Below, piece after piece: positions 29,590 to 45,108 of a stretch of DNA of 64,000 bases. Both the position numbers and the translations under genes were made by a program. Within the stretch, counting starts at the first letter, position 1, and every line of letters begins with the position of its first letter. The stretch comes from an uncultured Eubacteriales bacterium (GTDB lineage: Bacteria > Bacillota > Clostridia > Lachnospirales > Bianqueaceae). Under the pieces are notes generated by a model that searched no databases, had not been told where the DNA came from, and saw nothing but the letters and a program-made list of their open reading frames with translations. Location: positions 1-64,000 of the forward strand of contig OMYN01000012.1 in NCBI GenBank assembly GCA_900315265.1, in the 5' to 3' direction.

Positions 29590-30434
29590 GACGAAATGAG
29601 TATTCATTTGAGGTAAGGCTGACATTCGACAAGCCGGTAACGGATCATACTTTTCTTCTGCGCTGCCTTCCCGCCTGCTCCGACACGCAGACGGTGCTGG
29701 AGGAAAAGCTGGATCTGGATCCAGAGGTACATGTGACGGAGTCTTTGGATGGTTTCGGAAACCGTATCGTCTGCGGGACCATCACAGGGCCTCATGACCA
29801 TTTCTGCTATCACAGCCGCGGCATCGTAGAGGTAGACGACAGCCTCAGGCGTCCGGTTCCTTATTCCCAGAAAATGATCTATGCCGGAAGCGGTGAACTG
29901 ACCAAGGCAGACGCGCGTCTTTCGGCGGCTGCGGGCAGCCTCCTGCTTCTGACCGGGGGACTTTCGGACAGGGAAAAGGCGGATCTTCTGCTGGGAGAAG
30001 TACAAAACAGGATGATTTATGAACCCGGACTTACGGATACTCATACCTCAGCGGCCCGGGCTTTGGAACTGGGGCGGGGCGTCTGTCAGGATTTCACGCA
30101 TGTCTATATCGTTCTGGCCAGACAGATAGGCTTGACAGCCCGCTATTGCATGGGACTCGCTTCACAGGAGGGGCAGACCCATGCCTGGGCGGAAGTTTTG
30201 CTGGACGGCATCTGGCAGGGATATGATCCGACCAGGGGCTGCGTCTGCGGCGAAAACTATGTCCGCCTTGCCTGCGGCAGGGACGCGGCAGACTGCCCGG
30301 CAGAGGCAGGTATCATGAGCGGTTTCGCAAGGCAGAAACAGATGATCCAGACTTCGGTCACAACGGTCGAAGTCCATGAGGAGCAGAGAAAAGAGGAGCA
30401 GCGCCGGCAGCAGAGACAGCAGGTGCAGCAGTAA
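29586..30434 (+). CDS. Transglutaminase-like cysteine protease/amidase
   Basis: A 282-residue protein with an N-terminal beta-rich domain and a transglutaminase core. The triad is Cys in GRGVCQDFTH, His in GQTHAWAEV and Asp in GYDPTRG (residues about 159-220). The last 20 residues are a Glu/Arg/Gln-rich tail. It belongs with the ATP-grasp and alpha-E proteins (4-bp overlap), where it is proposed to cleave or transfer the peptide product. Presumably cytoplasmic, as no signal peptide is seen. Confidence 0.88.
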   Translation: MRRNEYSFEVRLTFDKPVTDHTFLLRCLPACSDTQTVLEEKLDLDPEVHVTESLDGFGNRIVCGTITGPHDHFCYHSRGIVEVDDSLRRPVPYSQKMIYAGSGELTKADARLSAAAGSLLLLTGGLSDREKADLLLGEVQNRMIYEPGLTDTHTSAARALELGRGVCQDFTHVYIVLARQIGLTARYCMGLASQEGQTHAWAEVLLDGIWQGYDPTRGCVCGENYVRLACGRDAADCPAEAGIMSGFARQKQMIQTSVTTVEVHEEQRKEEQRRQQRQQVQQ

Positions 30435-30464
30435 GGCAGTTACGAAAAGAGGAACAGGAAAGAT

Positions 30465-31457
30465 ATGAGTCCGGAGAAAGAAAAAGCATCAGGCACCGTA
30501 GTCACCGTTGCAAGGACCGACCTTCCGGTCAGAGAGCAGCTGATGCTGCAAAAAATGCATTATGTACCGGAAGCGGAAGATGCAGGCAAACGGATCTGTC
30601 TGGTGACCGGTATCCACGGAGATGAGCTGGAAGGGCAGCTGGTCGCCTATCAGGTCAACCGCAGGATACAGGAACATCCGGAATTTCTTCACGGAACGGT
30701 CGATATTTACCCGGCTATGAATCCTCTGGGCATCAATACGATCAAACGGGGCATTCCCGGTTTTGATCTTGACATGAACCGGACGTTTCCGGGCGATGAA
30801 CAGGGATCGATGATCGAGTATTTCGTCAATCAGGCATTTATGGATATGGAAGGAGCGGATTTCGCGATCGATCTGCACGCTTCTAATATCTTTCTGAGGG
30901 AACTGCCTCAGGTCAGGATATCGGAAGAAACCGAGGAAATGCTGCTGCCCTATGCACAGCTTTTGAACCTTGATTTTATCTGGATCCACGGGGCGGCAAC
31001 GGTCTTACAGAGCACGCTTGCGCATAGTTTAAACGATGTCGGTACGCGCTGCCTTGTGGTAGAGATGGGTGTTGGCATGCGCCTCACTCAAGAGTATGCT
31101 TCGCAGGTCACCGAAGGGATCTTCAACCTGATGAGGCACGAGGGGATCTGGGAAGGCCCGACCAGGCTGACTCACTTCCCGGTCACTTGCCGCGACCAGG
31201 TCGAATTTCTCAACGCGAATGCGGCCGGTATCTTCATACCCTCTGTTCAGCATGATATACATTTGAAAAAAGGTCAGACCATCGGTGTCATTGCGGATCC
31301 TTTGACAGGGACCGACCGGGAAACGATTAAAGCACCTCAAGACGGTCTGCTTTTTACCCTGCGGGAATACCCGGTCGTTTATCCCGGCAGCCTTCTGGGG
31401 CGGATCTTTGTATCGGGACCAAAAGCCCGGTCCGGAAAGGAAGAAGACAAGGCTTGA
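30465..31457 (+). CDS. M14-family AstE/AspA-like metallohydrolase
   Basis: A 330-residue zinc carboxypeptidase-fold protein of the succinylglutamate desuccinylase/aspartoacylase group. Zinc ligands are visible: His and Glu in TGIHGDELEGQ (near 45-55) and His in IDLHASN (near 138-145). The catalytic Glu is in VVEMGVGM. A C-terminal beta domain (KKGQTIGVIADPLTGTD) follows. It starts 30 bp after the transglutaminase gene, within the same operon. It probably trims an acyl-amino acid or peptide made by the ATP-grasp enzyme; substrate unknown. Confidence 0.88.
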   Translation: MSPEKEKASGTVVTVARTDLPVREQLMLQKMHYVPEAEDAGKRICLVTGIHGDELEGQLVAYQVNRRIQEHPEFLHGTVDIYPAMNPLGINTIKRGIPGFDLDMNRTFPGDEQGSMIEYFVNQAFMDMEGADFAIDLHASNIFLRELPQVRISEETEEMLLPYAQLLNLDFIWIHGAATVLQSTLAHSLNDVGTRCLVVEMGVGMRLTQEYASQVTEGIFNLMRHEGIWEGPTRLTHFPVTCRDQVEFLNANAAGIFIPSVQHDIHLKKGQTIGVIADPLTGTDRETIKAPQDGLLFTLREYPVVYPGSLLGRIFVSGPKARSGKEEDKA

Positions 31458-32389
31458 AAGAAGAAGTTATTTTTTCGCTGGATACGCCCTACCGTGAGTC
31501 ATGCCGTATCAGAGCTTTTTCATTCGGATCCGGCCATAAGACCTGCGCAGTAGTAGCCGGCATCCGGGGGAACGAAGTCCAGCAGATGTACGTCGCGTCC
31601 CTGCTTGTGAATAAACTCCGCCGCCTGGAAGAGGAGAACGGATTTTTAAGGGACCACCAGGTCCTGGTCATACCCTGCGCCAATCCCTTCTCCATGAATG
31701 TCAACAGCCGCTTCTGGCCTATGGACCAGACGGACATCAATCGCATGTTTCCCGGATACGACAAGGGAGAAACCACGCAGAGGATCGCGGACTCGATCTT
31801 TCAGGTGGTCAGAAAATACGAATACGGTATTCATCTGGCAAGCTTTTACCTGCCGGGCGATTTCATCCCTCATGTGAGGATCATGAATACGGGTTATGAA
31901 AACGCCGGCCTGGGCAATCTGTTCGGCCTTCCCTTTGTGGTGGTCAGCGAACCGACTCCTTTTGATACGACCACCCTCAATTACAACTGGCAGATCTGGG
32001 ATGCCAAGGCTTTTTCGGTCTATACAAGAGAAACGGAAATGATCGACAGCCAAAGCGCAAAGATGGCCAGGAACGGTATCCTGCGTTTTCTGAACCGGGT
32101 CGGCTGTATCCGCTATCCCAGCAGTAACGGATTTTTGCCGACGGTGGTCGAAGAGAAAAAAATGCTCAAGATCCATACCGAGCACGCCGGTATTTTCCAC
32201 CGCCTCAGGGATCCCGGAGACGAAGTGGAAGAGGGAGAGATCCTGGCAGAGATCCTGGATCCGCTGACAGGAGATATTACAGACCGGATAAAGGCGCCGG
32301 CCCACGGGATCGTATTTTTTGCTATGAGACAGCCCCTGATCAGTATCCATGAGATCGCTTTCAGGATCATCACGGATCTTCACTCATAA
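31454..32389 (+). CDS. M14-family paralogue lacking zinc ligands
   Basis: A 311-residue relative of the preceding protein with the same domain plan, but the HGDE site reads GIRGNEVQQ (His to Arg) and the DLHASN site reads IHLASFY (Asp to His, zinc His to Ala when aligned on the following VRI). At least two of three metal ligands are gone, so it is probably a non-catalytic partner or has a changed activity. It uses a TTG start overlapping the upstream stop by 4 bp, which implies tightly coupled synthesis of the two. Confidence 0.85.
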   Translation: MKEEVIFSLDTPYRESCRIRAFSFGSGHKTCAVVAGIRGNEVQQMYVASLLVNKLRRLEEENGFLRDHQVLVIPCANPFSMNVNSRFWPMDQTDINRMFPGYDKGETTQRIADSIFQVVRKYEYGIHLASFYLPGDFIPHVRIMNTGYENAGLGNLFGLPFVVVSEPTPFDTTTLNYNWQIWDAKAFSVYTRETEMIDSQSAKMARNGILRFLNRVGCIRYPSSNGFLPTVVEEKKMLKIHTEHAGIFHRLRDPGDEVEEGEILAEILDPLTGDITDRIKAPAHGIVFFAMRQPLISIHEIAFRIITDLHS

Positions 32390-32417
32390 AGGTGCAGAAA
32401 AGACTGTATCGAACTTC

Positions 32418-32491
32418 TTGAAAATGGATGCCTTCCCACTTACAATGATTGTTATGATTGATATGTCATCTGTAAGTGGGAGGGCTTTTTT
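32418..32491 (+). promoter_or_regulatory. Interlocked terminator, promoter and SD of the MBL gene
   Basis: A near-perfect 15-bp stem (32430-32444 with 32471-32485) followed by T6 ends exactly at the ATG (32492), forming an intrinsic terminator for the upstream operon. TTGAAA (32418-32423), 17 bp, TACAAT (32441-32446) forms a promoter whose -10 box lies in the stem's left arm. Transcripts starting near 32453 contain only the right arm, with a free GGGAGGG ribosome-binding site. Confidence 0.75.
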
Positions 32492-33364
32492 ATGGAATTT
32501 ACTTTTTTAGGCACGGCCGCGGCGGAAGGCTATCCCGGCCTCTGGTGCCGCTGTCCTTATTGTCAGCGGGCAAGACAGCTGGGAGGACGCAACCTTCGTA
32601 AAACTTCATCGGTCCATTTCGCGGATCACTGCCTGATCGATATGGGACCCGACACTTTTTCACAGGCTGAAAAATTCGGTGTAGACCTTATCGACACCGA
32701 CCTGCTGCTGGTGACTCATGCTCACGAGGACCATTTTTATCCTCAGCATCTGGTATGGCGCCAGCGGGCTCTGAAGGCGGCCGGGGAAACGCCCCAGCAG
32801 CGGTTTGAAAACGGTTATCCCCGCCAGCAGGACATCCCCGCTCTGCATATTTTCGGCAGCGAGTGCGTCGGAAAATATCTGAAGCAGGGCCTGGGGGATC
32901 TGACCTTCGAGGAGGCCGCCCTGGATTTTACCCAGGTGGTCCCCTACCGCAGGTACGAGTGCAAGGGAGTCACTTTTATTCCCATGACGGCTTCTCATAT
33001 CGATAAAGACGGATCTTTCGGCATGATCTATTATGTCAGCACCCGGGGACGGTCTTTCCTCTACGCCACCGATTCGGGCCCTTATTGTCAGGAAACGCGC
33101 GACTGCATAGCCGGCCTGAAAGTAGATGCCGTCATCATGGAGGAGACTTTTGGAAAAGCCCAAAAGGGGAAATATCACCAGACCTGGGACTCGGCTATGG
33201 AGGAAATCGACTTTTTCCGGGAAAAAGGCATCTTCAAAGGCCAGCCCCGTGTCTTTTGGACTCATATCAGCCCTCATAAAAATCCTCCTTATGACGATAT
33301 GGTCGGCATGCTGAAGGGGACGCCGGTTACGCTGGCTTATGACGGACTCAGGCTCGACCTTTGA
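32492..33364 (+). CDS. Metallo-beta-lactamase-fold hydrolase (PhnP-like)
   Basis: A 290-residue MBL-fold protein. It has the THAHEDHF metal motif (near 75-82) and further His ligands (TASHID, THISPHKN). A CRCPYCQRARQLGGRN segment near residues 18-33 resembles the cysteine insertion of PhnP-type phosphodiesterases. It likely cleaves a phosphodiester or cyclic nucleotide; exact substrate unknown. It has its own promoter, although the GH31 gene follows after 53 bp and may be co-transcribed. Confidence 0.85.
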   Translation: MEFTFLGTAAAEGYPGLWCRCPYCQRARQLGGRNLRKTSSVHFADHCLIDMGPDTFSQAEKFGVDLIDTDLLLVTHAHEDHFYPQHLVWRQRALKAAGETPQQRFENGYPRQQDIPALHIFGSECVGKYLKQGLGDLTFEEAALDFTQVVPYRRYECKGVTFIPMTASHIDKDGSFGMIYYVSTRGRSFLYATDSGPYCQETRDCIAGLKVDAVIMEETFGKAQKGKYHQTWDSAMEEIDFFREKGIFKGQPRVFWTHISPHKNPPYDDMVGMLKGTPVTLAYDGLRLDL

Positions 33365-33417
33365 GCACGCGTCCCGGCATAACAATTAAACGAAAATCGA
33401 TAGCTAAGGAGAAGGTT

Positions 33418-35730
33418 ATGAAATTCAGCAACGGTCAATGGCTGACGGCTAAAGGCTTTCATATTTTCGGTGCCTGCCAGGTCAGCGAAGTTATCAGGGA
33501 AGACAAAAAAGTTACCGTCATCATGCCTGCCCACCGCAACAAGGGCCGCGGGGACACCTTAGGCGGCGTTACCCTCACGCTTGAGATCACCTCGCCCCGC
33601 CCCGACATGATCGCCCTGAAAGCCAGCCACTTTATGGGCACATTAAACAACGAGCCGGCTTTCGAGTTAGACACCGACTATCAGCCCCTGACGGTCACGG
33701 AAGAGGATGATGGGTCCGTCAGCGCCGTCGATCTATCTTCCGGTATTGCCCACCCGGGAAGCGTTGCCGTTCAGGCAGGCCGCTCCAGGGTCGTTATCAA
33801 TAAGGATAACGGCGACATCGAATTTTACTTTGACGATGAGCTCAAATGCAAAAGCCAGGGCAGCCGCCGCGATCTGGCTTACGTGCTGGACGATTATACG
33901 GATGATGCCTATGTAAGTAATGATCAGCCCCACTATATGCGCCAGTGCCTGTCGATCGGGGTAGGAGAGCAGATCTACGGACTGGGAGAGCAGTTTACCC
34001 CTCTGGTCAGAAACGGCCAGAGCCTGACTATGTGGAACGCCGATGCGGGAACTTCCAGTGACCAGGGCTATAAGAATATTCCTTTTTACCTGTCCAGCCG
34101 AAGCTACGGTATTTTTGTCAACAGCTCCGACAAGGTATCCTTTGAAGTGGGCAGCGAGTATGTGGACAAGGTCGAGTTTTCGGTGCCGGATCAGCATCTG
34201 GAGTATGTCTTTATAGGAGGAAGCAGCCCCAAAGATGTCCTTAGCCGTTATACGGATCTGACCGGCAAACCGGGACTTCCCCCGGCCTGGAGCTTCGGAC
34301 TTTGGCTGTCGACTTCTTTTACCACTGACTATGATGAAAAAACCGTTATGTCCTTTATCGACGGCATGCAGGAGAGGGGGATCCCGCTGAGGGTCTTTCA
34401 TTTCGATTGTTTCTGGATGAAGGGCAATCACTGGTCCGACTTCCTTTTCGACCCGGCCGTGTTCCCGGATCCCAAGGGCATGCTGAGCCGTATCAAGGCA
34501 AAAGGTCTGAAGATCTGTGTCTGGATCAACCCCTACATCGCTCAGGCTTCCCGTCTTTTCAAAGAAGGAGCACAAAAGGGATATTTTCTGAAGCGGCCGG
34601 ACGGATCGGTCTGGCAGTGGGATATGTGGCAGTCCGGCATGGCTATCGTGGACTTTACCAATCCTCAGGCCAAAGCCTGGTACCAGAGTAAGCTGGACCA
34701 GCTGCTGGATCTGGGAGTCGACTGCTTCAAGACGGATTTCGGAGAGAGGATCCCTGTTGACTGCGTCTATTACAATGGTGCGGATCCCCGGTCCATGCAT
34801 AACTATTACACCTACCTTTACAATCAGGCTGTCTACCAGGTGCTGCAGAAAAGAAAGGGAGGAGCCGCAGATAATGAACCTAACGGGGCAGTCCTTTTTG
34901 CCCGTTCGGCTACCGCGGGCTCTCAGAAATTCAGTGTGCACTGGGGCGGCGACTGCTGGGCCAACTATCCCTCCATGGAGCAGTCCCTGCGGGCCGGCCT
35001 TTCCCTTCTGAGCAGCGGTTTCGGCTTCTGGAGCCATGACATAGGCGGATTTGAAGATACATCGACTCCGGATGTGTATAAGCGCTGGTGTGCTTTCGGA
35101 CTGCTTTCGTCCCACAGCCGCCTGCACGGGTCCAGTTCCTACCGGGTACCGTGGGCCTATGACAAGGAGTCGGTGGACGTGCTCCGGTTTTTTACCCGTT
35201 TGAAAGCCAGTCTTATGCCTTATTTATACCAGTGCGCCGTCGAAACGCATCAAAGCGGCGTCGGTCTGATGAGGCCCATGTTCCTGGAATTTCCCGAAGA
35301 CCGCAGCTGCCGGTATCTGGCTAACCAGTATATGCTGGGTCCTTCCCTGTTAGTTGCCCCCGTCATGGATCCTCAGGGCATCGTTGAATACTATCTTCCC
35401 TCCGGGATCTGGACGGACTATTTTACAGGTCAGACCTGTCAGGGGGGCTGCTGGAAAAAGGAAAAAGTCAGTTACCTGGACATTCCGCTGTGGGTGCGCC
35501 AGGGAGCCGTGCTGGCTGTCGGGCAGCACGAGGATAGGGCGGATTACGATTATGCGGACAATGTCACCTTGAAGGTTTATCAGCCTCAGGAGAAAGAGAC
35601 CGTGACAGTGACCGTTCCGGACCTGTACGGGCGCGTGGATTCGCAGTTCGAAGTCACGACCCTTGACGGAGTCACCAAGGTCAGCCGGGTCAAGGGCAGC
35701 AAACCGTATCAGATCCGGATCTTTAATTGA
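33418..35730 (+). CDS. yicI: Alpha-xylosidase, glycoside hydrolase family 31
   Basis: A 770-residue GH31 enzyme of YicI type. The nucleophile Asp is in CFKTDFGERIP (near 440), a YicI-specific variant of the family motif. Other conserved parts are VFHFDCFWMKGNHW, VWINPYIAQAS and HWGGDCWANY; the acid/base Asp lies in the latter region. It removes alpha-xylose from xyloglucan-type oligosaccharides or isoprimeverose in the cytoplasm, as no signal peptide is seen. The start at 33418 follows AAGGAGAAGG. It sits near GH130 and pullulanase genes, a glycan-use setting. Confidence 0.93.
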   Translation: MKFSNGQWLTAKGFHIFGACQVSEVIREDKKVTVIMPAHRNKGRGDTLGGVTLTLEITSPRPDMIALKASHFMGTLNNEPAFELDTDYQPLTVTEEDDGSVSAVDLSSGIAHPGSVAVQAGRSRVVINKDNGDIEFYFDDELKCKSQGSRRDLAYVLDDYTDDAYVSNDQPHYMRQCLSIGVGEQIYGLGEQFTPLVRNGQSLTMWNADAGTSSDQGYKNIPFYLSSRSYGIFVNSSDKVSFEVGSEYVDKVEFSVPDQHLEYVFIGGSSPKDVLSRYTDLTGKPGLPPAWSFGLWLSTSFTTDYDEKTVMSFIDGMQERGIPLRVFHFDCFWMKGNHWSDFLFDPAVFPDPKGMLSRIKAKGLKICVWINPYIAQASRLFKEGAQKGYFLKRPDGSVWQWDMWQSGMAIVDFTNPQAKAWYQSKLDQLLDLGVDCFKTDFGERIPVDCVYYNGADPRSMHNYYTYLYNQAVYQVLQKRKGGAADNEPNGAVLFARSATAGSQKFSVHWGGDCWANYPSMEQSLRAGLSLLSSGFGFWSHDIGGFEDTSTPDVYKRWCAFGLLSSHSRLHGSSSYRVPWAYDKESVDVLRFFTRLKASLMPYLYQCAVETHQSGVGLMRPMFLEFPEDRSCRYLANQYMLGPSLLVAPVMDPQGIVEYYLPSGIWTDYFTGQTCQGGCWKKEKVSYLDIPLWVRQGAVLAVGQHEDRADYDYADNVTLKVYQPQEKETVTVTVPDLYGRVDSQFEVTTLDGVTKVSRVKGSKPYQIRIFN

Positions 35731-35731
35731 T

Positions 35732-35780
35732 TTGCATCGGGAGGGCAAATACAGTACAATGGTAGGAAATAAACTGTATT
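35732..35780 (+). promoter_or_regulatory. degV promoter with inverted repeat
   Basis: TTGCAT (35732-35737), a 17-bp spacer and TACAAT (35755-35760). The half-sites AATACAGT (35748-35755) and ACTGTATT (35773-35780) straddle the -10 box and could bind a regulator. Confidence 0.55.
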
Positions 35781-35821
35781 GACGACAAGCAGGGTCTGCT
35801 CGTTCGTATAAGAGGTTACCT

Positions 35822-36697
35822 ATGAAAAAAATTGCGATCGCTACCGACAGCAATGCCGGTATCCGTCAGGCCGAGGCCAAAGATCTTGGCATCTTCGTGC
35901 TGGCTATGCCTTTTTATATCGATAAAAATGAATATTACGAGGATATCTCCCTGACCCAGGAGCAGTTTTATCAGAAATTAGCTGAAAACGTGGATATCTC
36001 AACCTCTCAGCCGACTCCCGGTCATGTCATGGATTTCTGGCAGCAGATCCTGAACCTGGGCTTTGACGAGGTCGTTTACCTGCCTATGTCCAGCGGACTG
36101 TCTTCCTCCTGCCAGAGCGCCGAGATGCTGGCCCGCAACTTTGACGGGAAGGTACAGGTGGTCGATAATCAGCGGATCTCACTTACCCTGCAGCAGTCGA
36201 TCCTGGACGCGCTGACACTGGCTAATGCCGGCTATGACGCAAAAGCCATCAAAGAAAAACTGGAAGAGACCAAGCATGACCAGACCATTTATATTTCTCT
36301 GGAGACTTTGTACTACTTGAAAAAAGGCGGCCGCATTACTCCTGCCGCGGCCGCGATCGGAACCATGCTCAACCTGAAGCCGGTCCTGCAGATCCAGGGC
36401 GGCAAGCTGGACGCTTATGCCAAGGCTCACGGTATGAAGGCCGCCAGGATGACAATGATCAAAGCCATCCAGCATGATCTGGATACCCGCTTCAAGGAGT
36501 GGGATAGTAAAGGGGAGACCCAACTGGGTATCTCCTACAGCGGGGTGGATATGACAGCTCCCAACGACTGGAAAGAACAGGTGCAGAAAGCCTTTCCCGG
36601 CCGCTCCATTTATATGGCGCCTCTGTCGCTGAGCATCAGCTGCCACATCGGTCCCGGAGCACTGGCTATTACCGAGACCCGTATCCTGAAGCCTTAA
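35822..36697 (+). CDS. DegV family fatty-acid-binding protein
   Basis: A 291-residue protein with DegV signatures: an IATDSNAGI start, STSQPTPG (near 60), MSSGLSSSCQSAEM and YLKKGGRITPAAA. DegV/FakB proteins hold a fatty acid in a buried pocket and present it to the kinase FakA for phosphorylation before entry into phospholipid synthesis. No fakA gene is nearby. It is monocistronic between a clear promoter and a terminator. Confidence 0.93.
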   Translation: MKKIAIATDSNAGIRQAEAKDLGIFVLAMPFYIDKNEYYEDISLTQEQFYQKLAENVDISTSQPTPGHVMDFWQQILNLGFDEVVYLPMSSGLSSSCQSAEMLARNFDGKVQVVDNQRISLTLQQSILDALTLANAGYDAKAIKEKLEETKHDQTIYISLETLYYLKKGGRITPAAAAIGTMLNLKPVLQIQGGKLDAYAKAHGMKAARMTMIKAIQHDLDTRFKEWDSKGETQLGISYSGVDMTAPNDWKEQVQKAFPGRSIYMAPLSLSISCHIGPGALAITETRILKP

Positions 36698-44920: not shown

Positions 44921-44983
44921 ATTTGCCTCCGTCAATTACTGATCGCTCGGCTGGTTGCCAGTCAGCAATTGTCGGAGGCAAAT
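44921..44983 (+). terminator. Long hairpin ending the arginine operon
   Basis: ATTTGCCTCCG (44921-44931) pairs with CGGAGGCAAAT (44973-44983), and the inner CAATT/AATTG and CTGA/TCAG continue the stem. Confidence 0.75.
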
Positions 44984-45037: not shown

Positions 45038-45108
45038 CAGGGGTACTAAGAGTCGAACTCAGATTAACGGTTTTGGAGACCGCCGTTCTACCATTGAACT
45101 ACACCCCT
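45038..45108 (-). tRNA. tRNA-Trp (anticodon CCA)
   Basis: The minus strand folds as a cloverleaf: acceptor AGGGGTG/TACCCCT with one G-U, an anticodon stem GCGGT/ACCGT around the loop CTCCAAA (anticodon CCA), a T stem CTGAG/CTTAG with loop TTCGACT, and discriminator G. CCA is not encoded. Each of these three stems has one G-U pair. Promoter and terminator flank it, making a single-gene unit. Confidence 0.93.

Follow-up and report, generated by a model that had tools for sequence, protein, structure and literature searches.

A predicted terminator hairpin overlapping a putative promoter and a ribosome-binding site between two tandem genes, and similar hairpins in related bacteria

How can a gene be expressed when its start codon directly follows the T-run of what looks like the terminator of the preceding gene, and when its Shine-Dalgarno (SD) sequence lies within the stem of that terminator? 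The question is raised by a 74-bp unit (32418-32491, plus strand) upstream of a gene for an MBL-fold protein in the window, i.e. the whole 64-kb stretch of DNA analysed here. The answer that we consider likely is that the unit forms a composite element at the junction of two tandem genes under different control, and that the MBL gene is driven by its own promoter only.

Every piece of the unit that the first-pass annotation had described, with a -10 box in the left arm of the hairpin, the SD in the right arm and the T-run abutting the ATG, was located (Table 1). The two hexamers match the promoter consensus at 10 of 12 positions, the top score among the four promoter-like sites listed for 30000-36000, and the position of the -10 would predict a transcription start at about 32453-32454. 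The alternative box in the apical part resembles the extended -10 consensus. The arms form 15 pairs, one of them G-U, and 40 nt lie between the stop codon of the co-directional upstream gene and the foot of the stem. The hairpin is absent from the list of a simple terminator scan, probably because that scan permits only a loop of 3-8 nt around an unbroken stem. As full-length homologs of the MBL protein align from residue 1, this ATG is very likely the true start.

Table 1 Features of the junction between the upstream gene and the MBL-fold protein gene
Feature	Coordinates	Strand	Basis or remark
Upstream co-directional gene, succinylglutamate desuccinylase/aspartoacylase-like (AstE/AspA-like), PF24827, last before junction	31454..32389	+	Pfam
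-35 hexamer TTGAAA	32418..32423	+	Promoter scan; 17-nt spacer to -10
Left arm GCCTTCCCACTTACA of terminator/SD-occluding stem	32430..32444	+	RNAfold, arm pairing
-10 hexamer TACAAT, overlapping left arm and upper stem	32441..32446	+	Promoter scan
Apical part, 10 more pairs and 4-nt loop	32445..32470	+	RNAfold
Alternative extended -10-like TGT-TATGAT, within apical part	32450..32458	+	By eye
Right arm TGTAAGTGGGAGGGC	32471..32485	+	RNAfold, arm pairing
Shine-Dalgarno GGGAGG inside right arm, 8 nt from ATG	32478..32483	+	Sequence
T6 run, terminator U-tract and part of SD-to-ATG spacer	32486..32491	+	Sequence
MBL-fold protein gene, Lactamase_B_2, PF12706, ATG at 32492	32492..33364	+	Pfam, homologs

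RNAfold of 32418-32520 gives 25 pairs (32430-32485) around a 4-nt loop at -36.7 kcal/mol, against a shuffle mean of -20.4 (z -5.8), and none of 200 shuffles was equally stable. This stable, G+C-containing stem is immediately followed by T6, as in an intrinsic terminator. The predicted probability that the SD is unpaired is 0.001 in read-through RNA versus 0.67 in RNA from an internal start (32453, 32454 or 32465), which agrees with the annotation's further claim that read-through transcripts would terminate or hide the SD and that those from the internal promoter escape both.

Under the composite reading, a polymerase arriving from the AstE/AspA-like gene would make the entire hairpin and mostly terminate at T6. 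RNA that leaks through would retain both arms, so that the SD would be buried and the MBL gene untranslated. A sigma-A-type promoter with its -10 in the left arm would instead begin the mRNA in the apical part, and such an mRNA, lacking the left arm, would form no terminator and would present GGGAGG exposed in front of the ATG. The first-pass annotation had proposed that the unit isolates the MBL gene from upstream transcription; folds, position and recurrence (see below) support this computationally, with promoter use, termination and the isolating role as predictions.

The same features could, however, belong to an ordinary terminator whose right arm contains an SD by accident and whose promoter-like sequence arose by chance, in which case expression of the MBL gene would be weak or would depend on read-through. 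The 6 kb around the element show no excess of promoter-like sites (4 found in 30000-36000, 4.4 expected from shuffles), and 75 of 5000 local shuffles (about 1.5%) produce a promoter that scores 10/12 or better and would start transcription between the arms; the promoter rate of the 64-kb window gives an expectation of 0.0022 for such a promoter between the arms. Against this explanation, the MBL start codon is backed by homology and its SD lies within the stem. Over six frames, the window has 106 start codons that follow an SD and open a frame of 150 codons or more, alternative starts and non-genes included; at 18 of these the SD is paired within a fold more stable than -15 kcal/mol. The start at 32492 has six T in the preceding nine bases, and the next highest among these 18 (27728) has four. 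As the combination of features is also enriched beyond shuffles in other genomes, as set out below, an accidental arrangement is unlikely.

The arrangement is uncommon among the MBL-related loci examined. Homolog searches returned 30 rows, from which 28 loci were inspected (L017 and L019 being further pieces of genes already inspected). No close ortholog of the MBL gene was found among them, the relatives being 26-38% identical over the longer matches. With the gene's own copy (L002) excluded and folds judged by eye, an SD-burying hairpin with a T-run precedes one of the 27 other loci: a very distant MBL-like gene (L021, 28% identity over a third of the protein) whose hairpin contains TG-G-TACAAT. 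In front of a paralog encoded elsewhere in this genome (L013, 38% identity) the leader is ordinary. Within this genome, the pattern GGAGG, 0-6 nt, TTTTT, 0-4 nt, ATG occurs 21 times versus once for the reversed pattern, and most of the 21 matches, inspected by eye, are ordinary SDs outside any terminator stem. One further long hairpin of the same genome, GGCACC...GGTGCC, encloses the SD, T5 and ATG of an ORF beginning MCSIF (L042, G000:C25 near 71921); Rfam has no match at this locus.

Recurrence was surveyed in 196 genomes of the order with the pattern CCTCC, 10-40 nt, GGAGGTTTTT, 0-6 nt, ATG. The element of the window itself fails this pattern (its left arm reads CTTCC, and GC lies between GGAGG and the T-run), and the survey therefore collects look-alikes, to whose class the window's element belongs by anatomy. 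By hand count the pattern gave 128 rows in 80 of the 196 genomes; the reversed pattern gave 6 matches in 4 genomes, and replacing ATG by CAT gave 43 rows (hand count) in 30 of the 196. After removal of five identical copies in G125 and two in G053, and after collapsing identical or overlapping stretches, 116 places were left, 58 with frames of at least 80 codons and 58 with shorter ones. IS-like places (1 and 9, respectively) were left out, giving 57 and 49. Counts were compared with 200 shuffles that preserve the arms and with the opposite strand, and were repeated with one count per gene cluster, the clusters being defined by a crude shared-4-mer rule.

A -10 box of at least 5/6 with the predicted start between the arms was found in 34 of the 57 longer frames (shuffle mean 17.9, max 25; opposite strand 18) and in 24 of 42 gene clusters (mean 13.2, max 19; opposite strand 15). 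The short-frame places, which are mostly ordinary terminators, gave 5 of 49, with a shuffle mean of 5.2 and 6 on the opposite strand. Under a stricter rule (-10 of at least 5, total of at least 8) the counts were 27 of 57 frames (mean 10.7, max 17; opposite strand 13), 19 of 42 clusters (mean 7.8, max 15; opposite strand 11) and 2 of 49 short-frame places (mean 3.2; opposite strand 3). There is thus an excess of -10 boxes in the real genes of the order sample, yet roughly half of the 34 may be due to chance, as the AT-richness of these hairpins produces many matches in shuffles and on the opposite strand. In the 34 cases, median predicted SD accessibility rises from 0.0 in read-through RNA to 0.48 with the internal start, and it increases in 33 of them (not in L145); the predicted start lies merely 0-2 nt before the SD in 11 of the 34. 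In 30 of the 34 cases with a -10, a same-strand frame of at least 90 codons has its end no more than 250 nt upstream; this also holds for 15 of 23 cases without a -10 and for 46 of 58 short-frame places. Within 50 nt, the counts for a same-strand frame are 24 of 34, 8 of 23 and 24 of 58. These nearby co-directional frames place the promoter-bearing units where the terminator of a preceding gene is expected.

A second sample of 119 genomes across the phylum, all new except G000, repeats the excess of -10 boxes, although less strongly than the order sample. The pattern matched 40 of these genomes in 55 rows (hand count); with two G000 rows left out, the remainder collapsed to 50 places, 28 with real frames and 22 with short ones. 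Eleven of the 28 real frames have a -10 that puts the predicted start between the arms (shuffle mean 5.7, max 11, a value reached by 1 of 200 shuffles; opposite strand 6), two of these eleven (L216 and L230) being identical in hairpin and protein start, and the short-frame places gave 1 of 22 (shuffle mean 2.8). Promoters found in this sample include TTGACA-17-TATAAT before a gene for an exonuclease-domain protein (L233) and TTGACA-17-TACAAT before an rpiB gene (L222). A same-strand frame ends within 250 nt upstream of all 11 places with a -10 and within 50 nt upstream of 9 of them, versus 10 and 9, respectively, of the 17 without.

Conservation was followed in two gene families, with stem pairs read from individual folds, since the MAFFT alignment misplaced the arms. 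Seventeen BioY homologs were examined out of 22 matched rows (L193-L197 left out). In four of them (L176-L179), TTGACA, the 17-nt spacer, the -10, the SD-burying stem, the T-rich run and the ATG are all kept, while the sequence varies and stem pairs change in both arms: the -10 boxes read TACAAT, TATACT, TACAAT and TAAAAT, the stem pair at -3 relative to the -10 is G-C, A-T, A-T and T-A, and that at -9 is G-T, C-G, A-T and G-T. L177 has a bulge, with one arm longer by one base. Three homologs keep parts of the unit: L183 keeps the promoter (TTGACG-17-TATACT) with a shifted hairpin, L180 keeps both hexamers with only four SD pairs, and L184 keeps the -35 with a weak SD stem and no T-run. The remaining 10 of the 17 have no such unit when inspected by eye. 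For the C_GCAxxG gene, of which six of seven loci were examined (L175 left out), TATAAT stands at or near the hairpin tip in five and AATAAT in the sixth; the -35 is weak, and the T-run is interrupted in L173 and L174.

A different possibility is a regulated attenuator, similar to a riboswitch leader or to the cplR leader with its controlling uORF: the transcript would start further upstream, and formation of the terminator/SD hairpin would depend on a signal. In related genomes the same terminator-plus-SD hairpin is found beside TPP and THF aptamers, where it presumably serves as the expression platform: in 9 of the 18 order-sample clusters without a -10 the hairpin directly follows a riboswitch (TPP in eight, THF in one), and the other 9 have neither a -10 nor a riboswitch. 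For the phylum sample, an Rfam scan covered 20 of the 50 places, 8 of them among the 17 real frames that lack a -10. One of these eight (L221) has a SAM riboswitch ahead of its hairpin, and one short-frame place (L232) has a cobalamin riboswitch there. A T-box (L212) and an L10 leader (L217) were rejected as hairpin leaders, both being downstream of the hairpin. The cplR terminator of C. difficile is reported to bury an SD, with mutants tested by reporters (PMC10201436). Two enolase genes would have the hairpin in their own leader. In these genes (L053 and L078, genus g3, same family) the SD forms part of the right arm of a hairpin some 20 bp long, which is followed by a T-run and the ATG. A TATATT or TATAAT box lies just upstream of the hairpin, which would place the hairpin at the 5' end of the mRNA and make it a candidate for a regulatory leader, not for an insulator.

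At the MBL gene, however, Rfam at gathering scores finds no family at the element and no known aptamer or leader upstream of the hairpin, the sole match in the 64-kb window being a tRNA (45038-45108). Only 40 nt separate the upstream stop codon from the stem, the RNA made before the right arm (32390-32470) folds to only -14.6 kcal/mol, and a putative promoter is located inside the hairpin. An attenuator at this site is therefore quite unlikely. Downstream of a minus-strand tRNA, a 22-bp inverted repeat (91%; 44921-44983) is probably a terminator; a plus-strand gene seems to end there.

An SD-in-terminator hairpin also precedes multi-copy genes in G125, G053 and G182 (e.g. L142, L163, L082 and L098), and the G125 copies have TATAAT inside it. 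These multi-copy genes are probably IS-type; the label IS-like, given to ten loci of the order sample, follows their resemblance to transposase N-termini. Pfam applied to IS-like loci gave mainly helix-turn-helix matches for L143 and none for a 27-aa fragment, and a -10 was found in 6 of the 10 IS-like places (shuffle mean 2.3, max 7). Although these presumed IS genes have a hairpin of this kind, it is very improbable that the element of the window derives from a mobile element (an IS or REP-like end) adopted as a gene leader, and a repeated or mobile origin was rejected, as the 98-nt stretch containing it matches its own genome once, the tested flanking genes are not transposases and an MBL gene lies downstream.

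Such hairpins thus seem to be of four kinds: expression platforms of riboswitches, junctions with a promoter, guards of mobile elements, and plain terminators. SD-burying terminator hairpins in L146, L161, L147, L152, L215, L243 and L244 contain CATATATT, CATATAGT, CATATGTT, CATACTAA or CATACTG, boxes that resemble sporulation sigma-E/K -10 boxes; the first four loci are presumably DUF3794-like. This resemblance suggests versions of the element that use other sigma factors. In L056, L076 and L086, similar, presumably vWA-like genes from different families, SD-burying terminators have an internal -10-like box at differing positions, which suggests repeated re-invention. On balance we lean towards the wider view that Bacillota-type bacteria carry recurrent, repeatedly evolved terminator-promoter-RBS elements at tandem-gene junctions, which would isolate both transcription and translation. 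The versions at housekeeping genes (purC, rpiB, bioY, a gene for a CDP-alcohol phosphatidyltransferase and probably argG) would depend on sigma-A, whereas those at genes of sporulation type may depend on other sigma factors.

If the composite reading of the MBL junction holds, the element would be a compact natural insulator in which some 75 bp uncouple adjacent genes at the levels of transcription and translation in a crowded genome, one hairpin replacing a separate terminator, spacer, promoter and leader. In that event, not every terminator that adjoins a start codon would be an attenuator, and three kinds of SD-occluding terminator could be told apart: the platforms of riboswitches, the guards of mobile elements and junctions that bear a promoter. 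Such elements would also offer a ready design for insulated tandem genes.

Several known systems share parts of this arrangement. Tn10/IS10 and IS200 are reportedly protected from outside transcription (Davis 1985 and Beuzon 1999 are said to describe this); these are mobile elements, whereas the element described here has an MBL gene downstream and a single genomic copy. That IS elements can block RNA that enters from outside is noted as known (PMC2965389). The same article, by Naville and Gautheret (2010), treated a terminator that hides the RBS as possible and, at that date, undemonstrated; RBS-sequestering terminators are proposed there as attenuators, and the excerpted text (PMC2965389) places no internal promoter in them, in contrast to the predicted promoter inside the hairpin here. 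The TPP and THF expression platforms (9 loci) share the geometry of arms, SD, T-run and ATG, but they have an aptamer, whereas the MBL element has none at gathering scores and has its putative promoter inside the hairpin. Within the part of the literature covered, no title or abstract describes a terminator, an internal promoter and an RBS in one chromosomal hairpin.

The closest likenesses are found in phage T4 and in C. difficile. In the T4 genes e, soc, 49 and I-TevI, long upstream transcripts are reported to bury the SD in a leader hairpin, and the late promoters of gene e are situated in the DNA that encodes the hairpin's 5' strand, so that their transcripts lack this strand and are well translated (PMC3014915). 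The MBL element is like gene e in that the SD is buried in read-through RNA and free in internally started RNA, here by fold prediction, and in that the DNA for the hairpin's 5' strand includes promoter sequence, here a consensus match. The T4 leaders depend on phage late promoters and are not described as terminators in the excerpted text (PMC3014915), unlike the present case with its T-run, putative sigma-A-type promoter and chromosomal genes. In cplR, a poly-U terminator hairpin buries the SD of the downstream gene, which is said to suppress expression from non-terminated transcripts, and both stem and poly-U mutants were assayed (PMC10201436). This terminator hairpin with a buried SD before a downstream gene is what cplR has in common with the element; cplR is, by that account, an antibiotic-controlled attenuator with a uORF, an anti-terminator and a promoter upstream of the leader, whereas the predicted promoter here is inside the hairpin. 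By analogy, the translational half of the MBL element resembles the logic of T4 gene e, and the half made up of a terminator with a buried SD would have its precedent in cplR.
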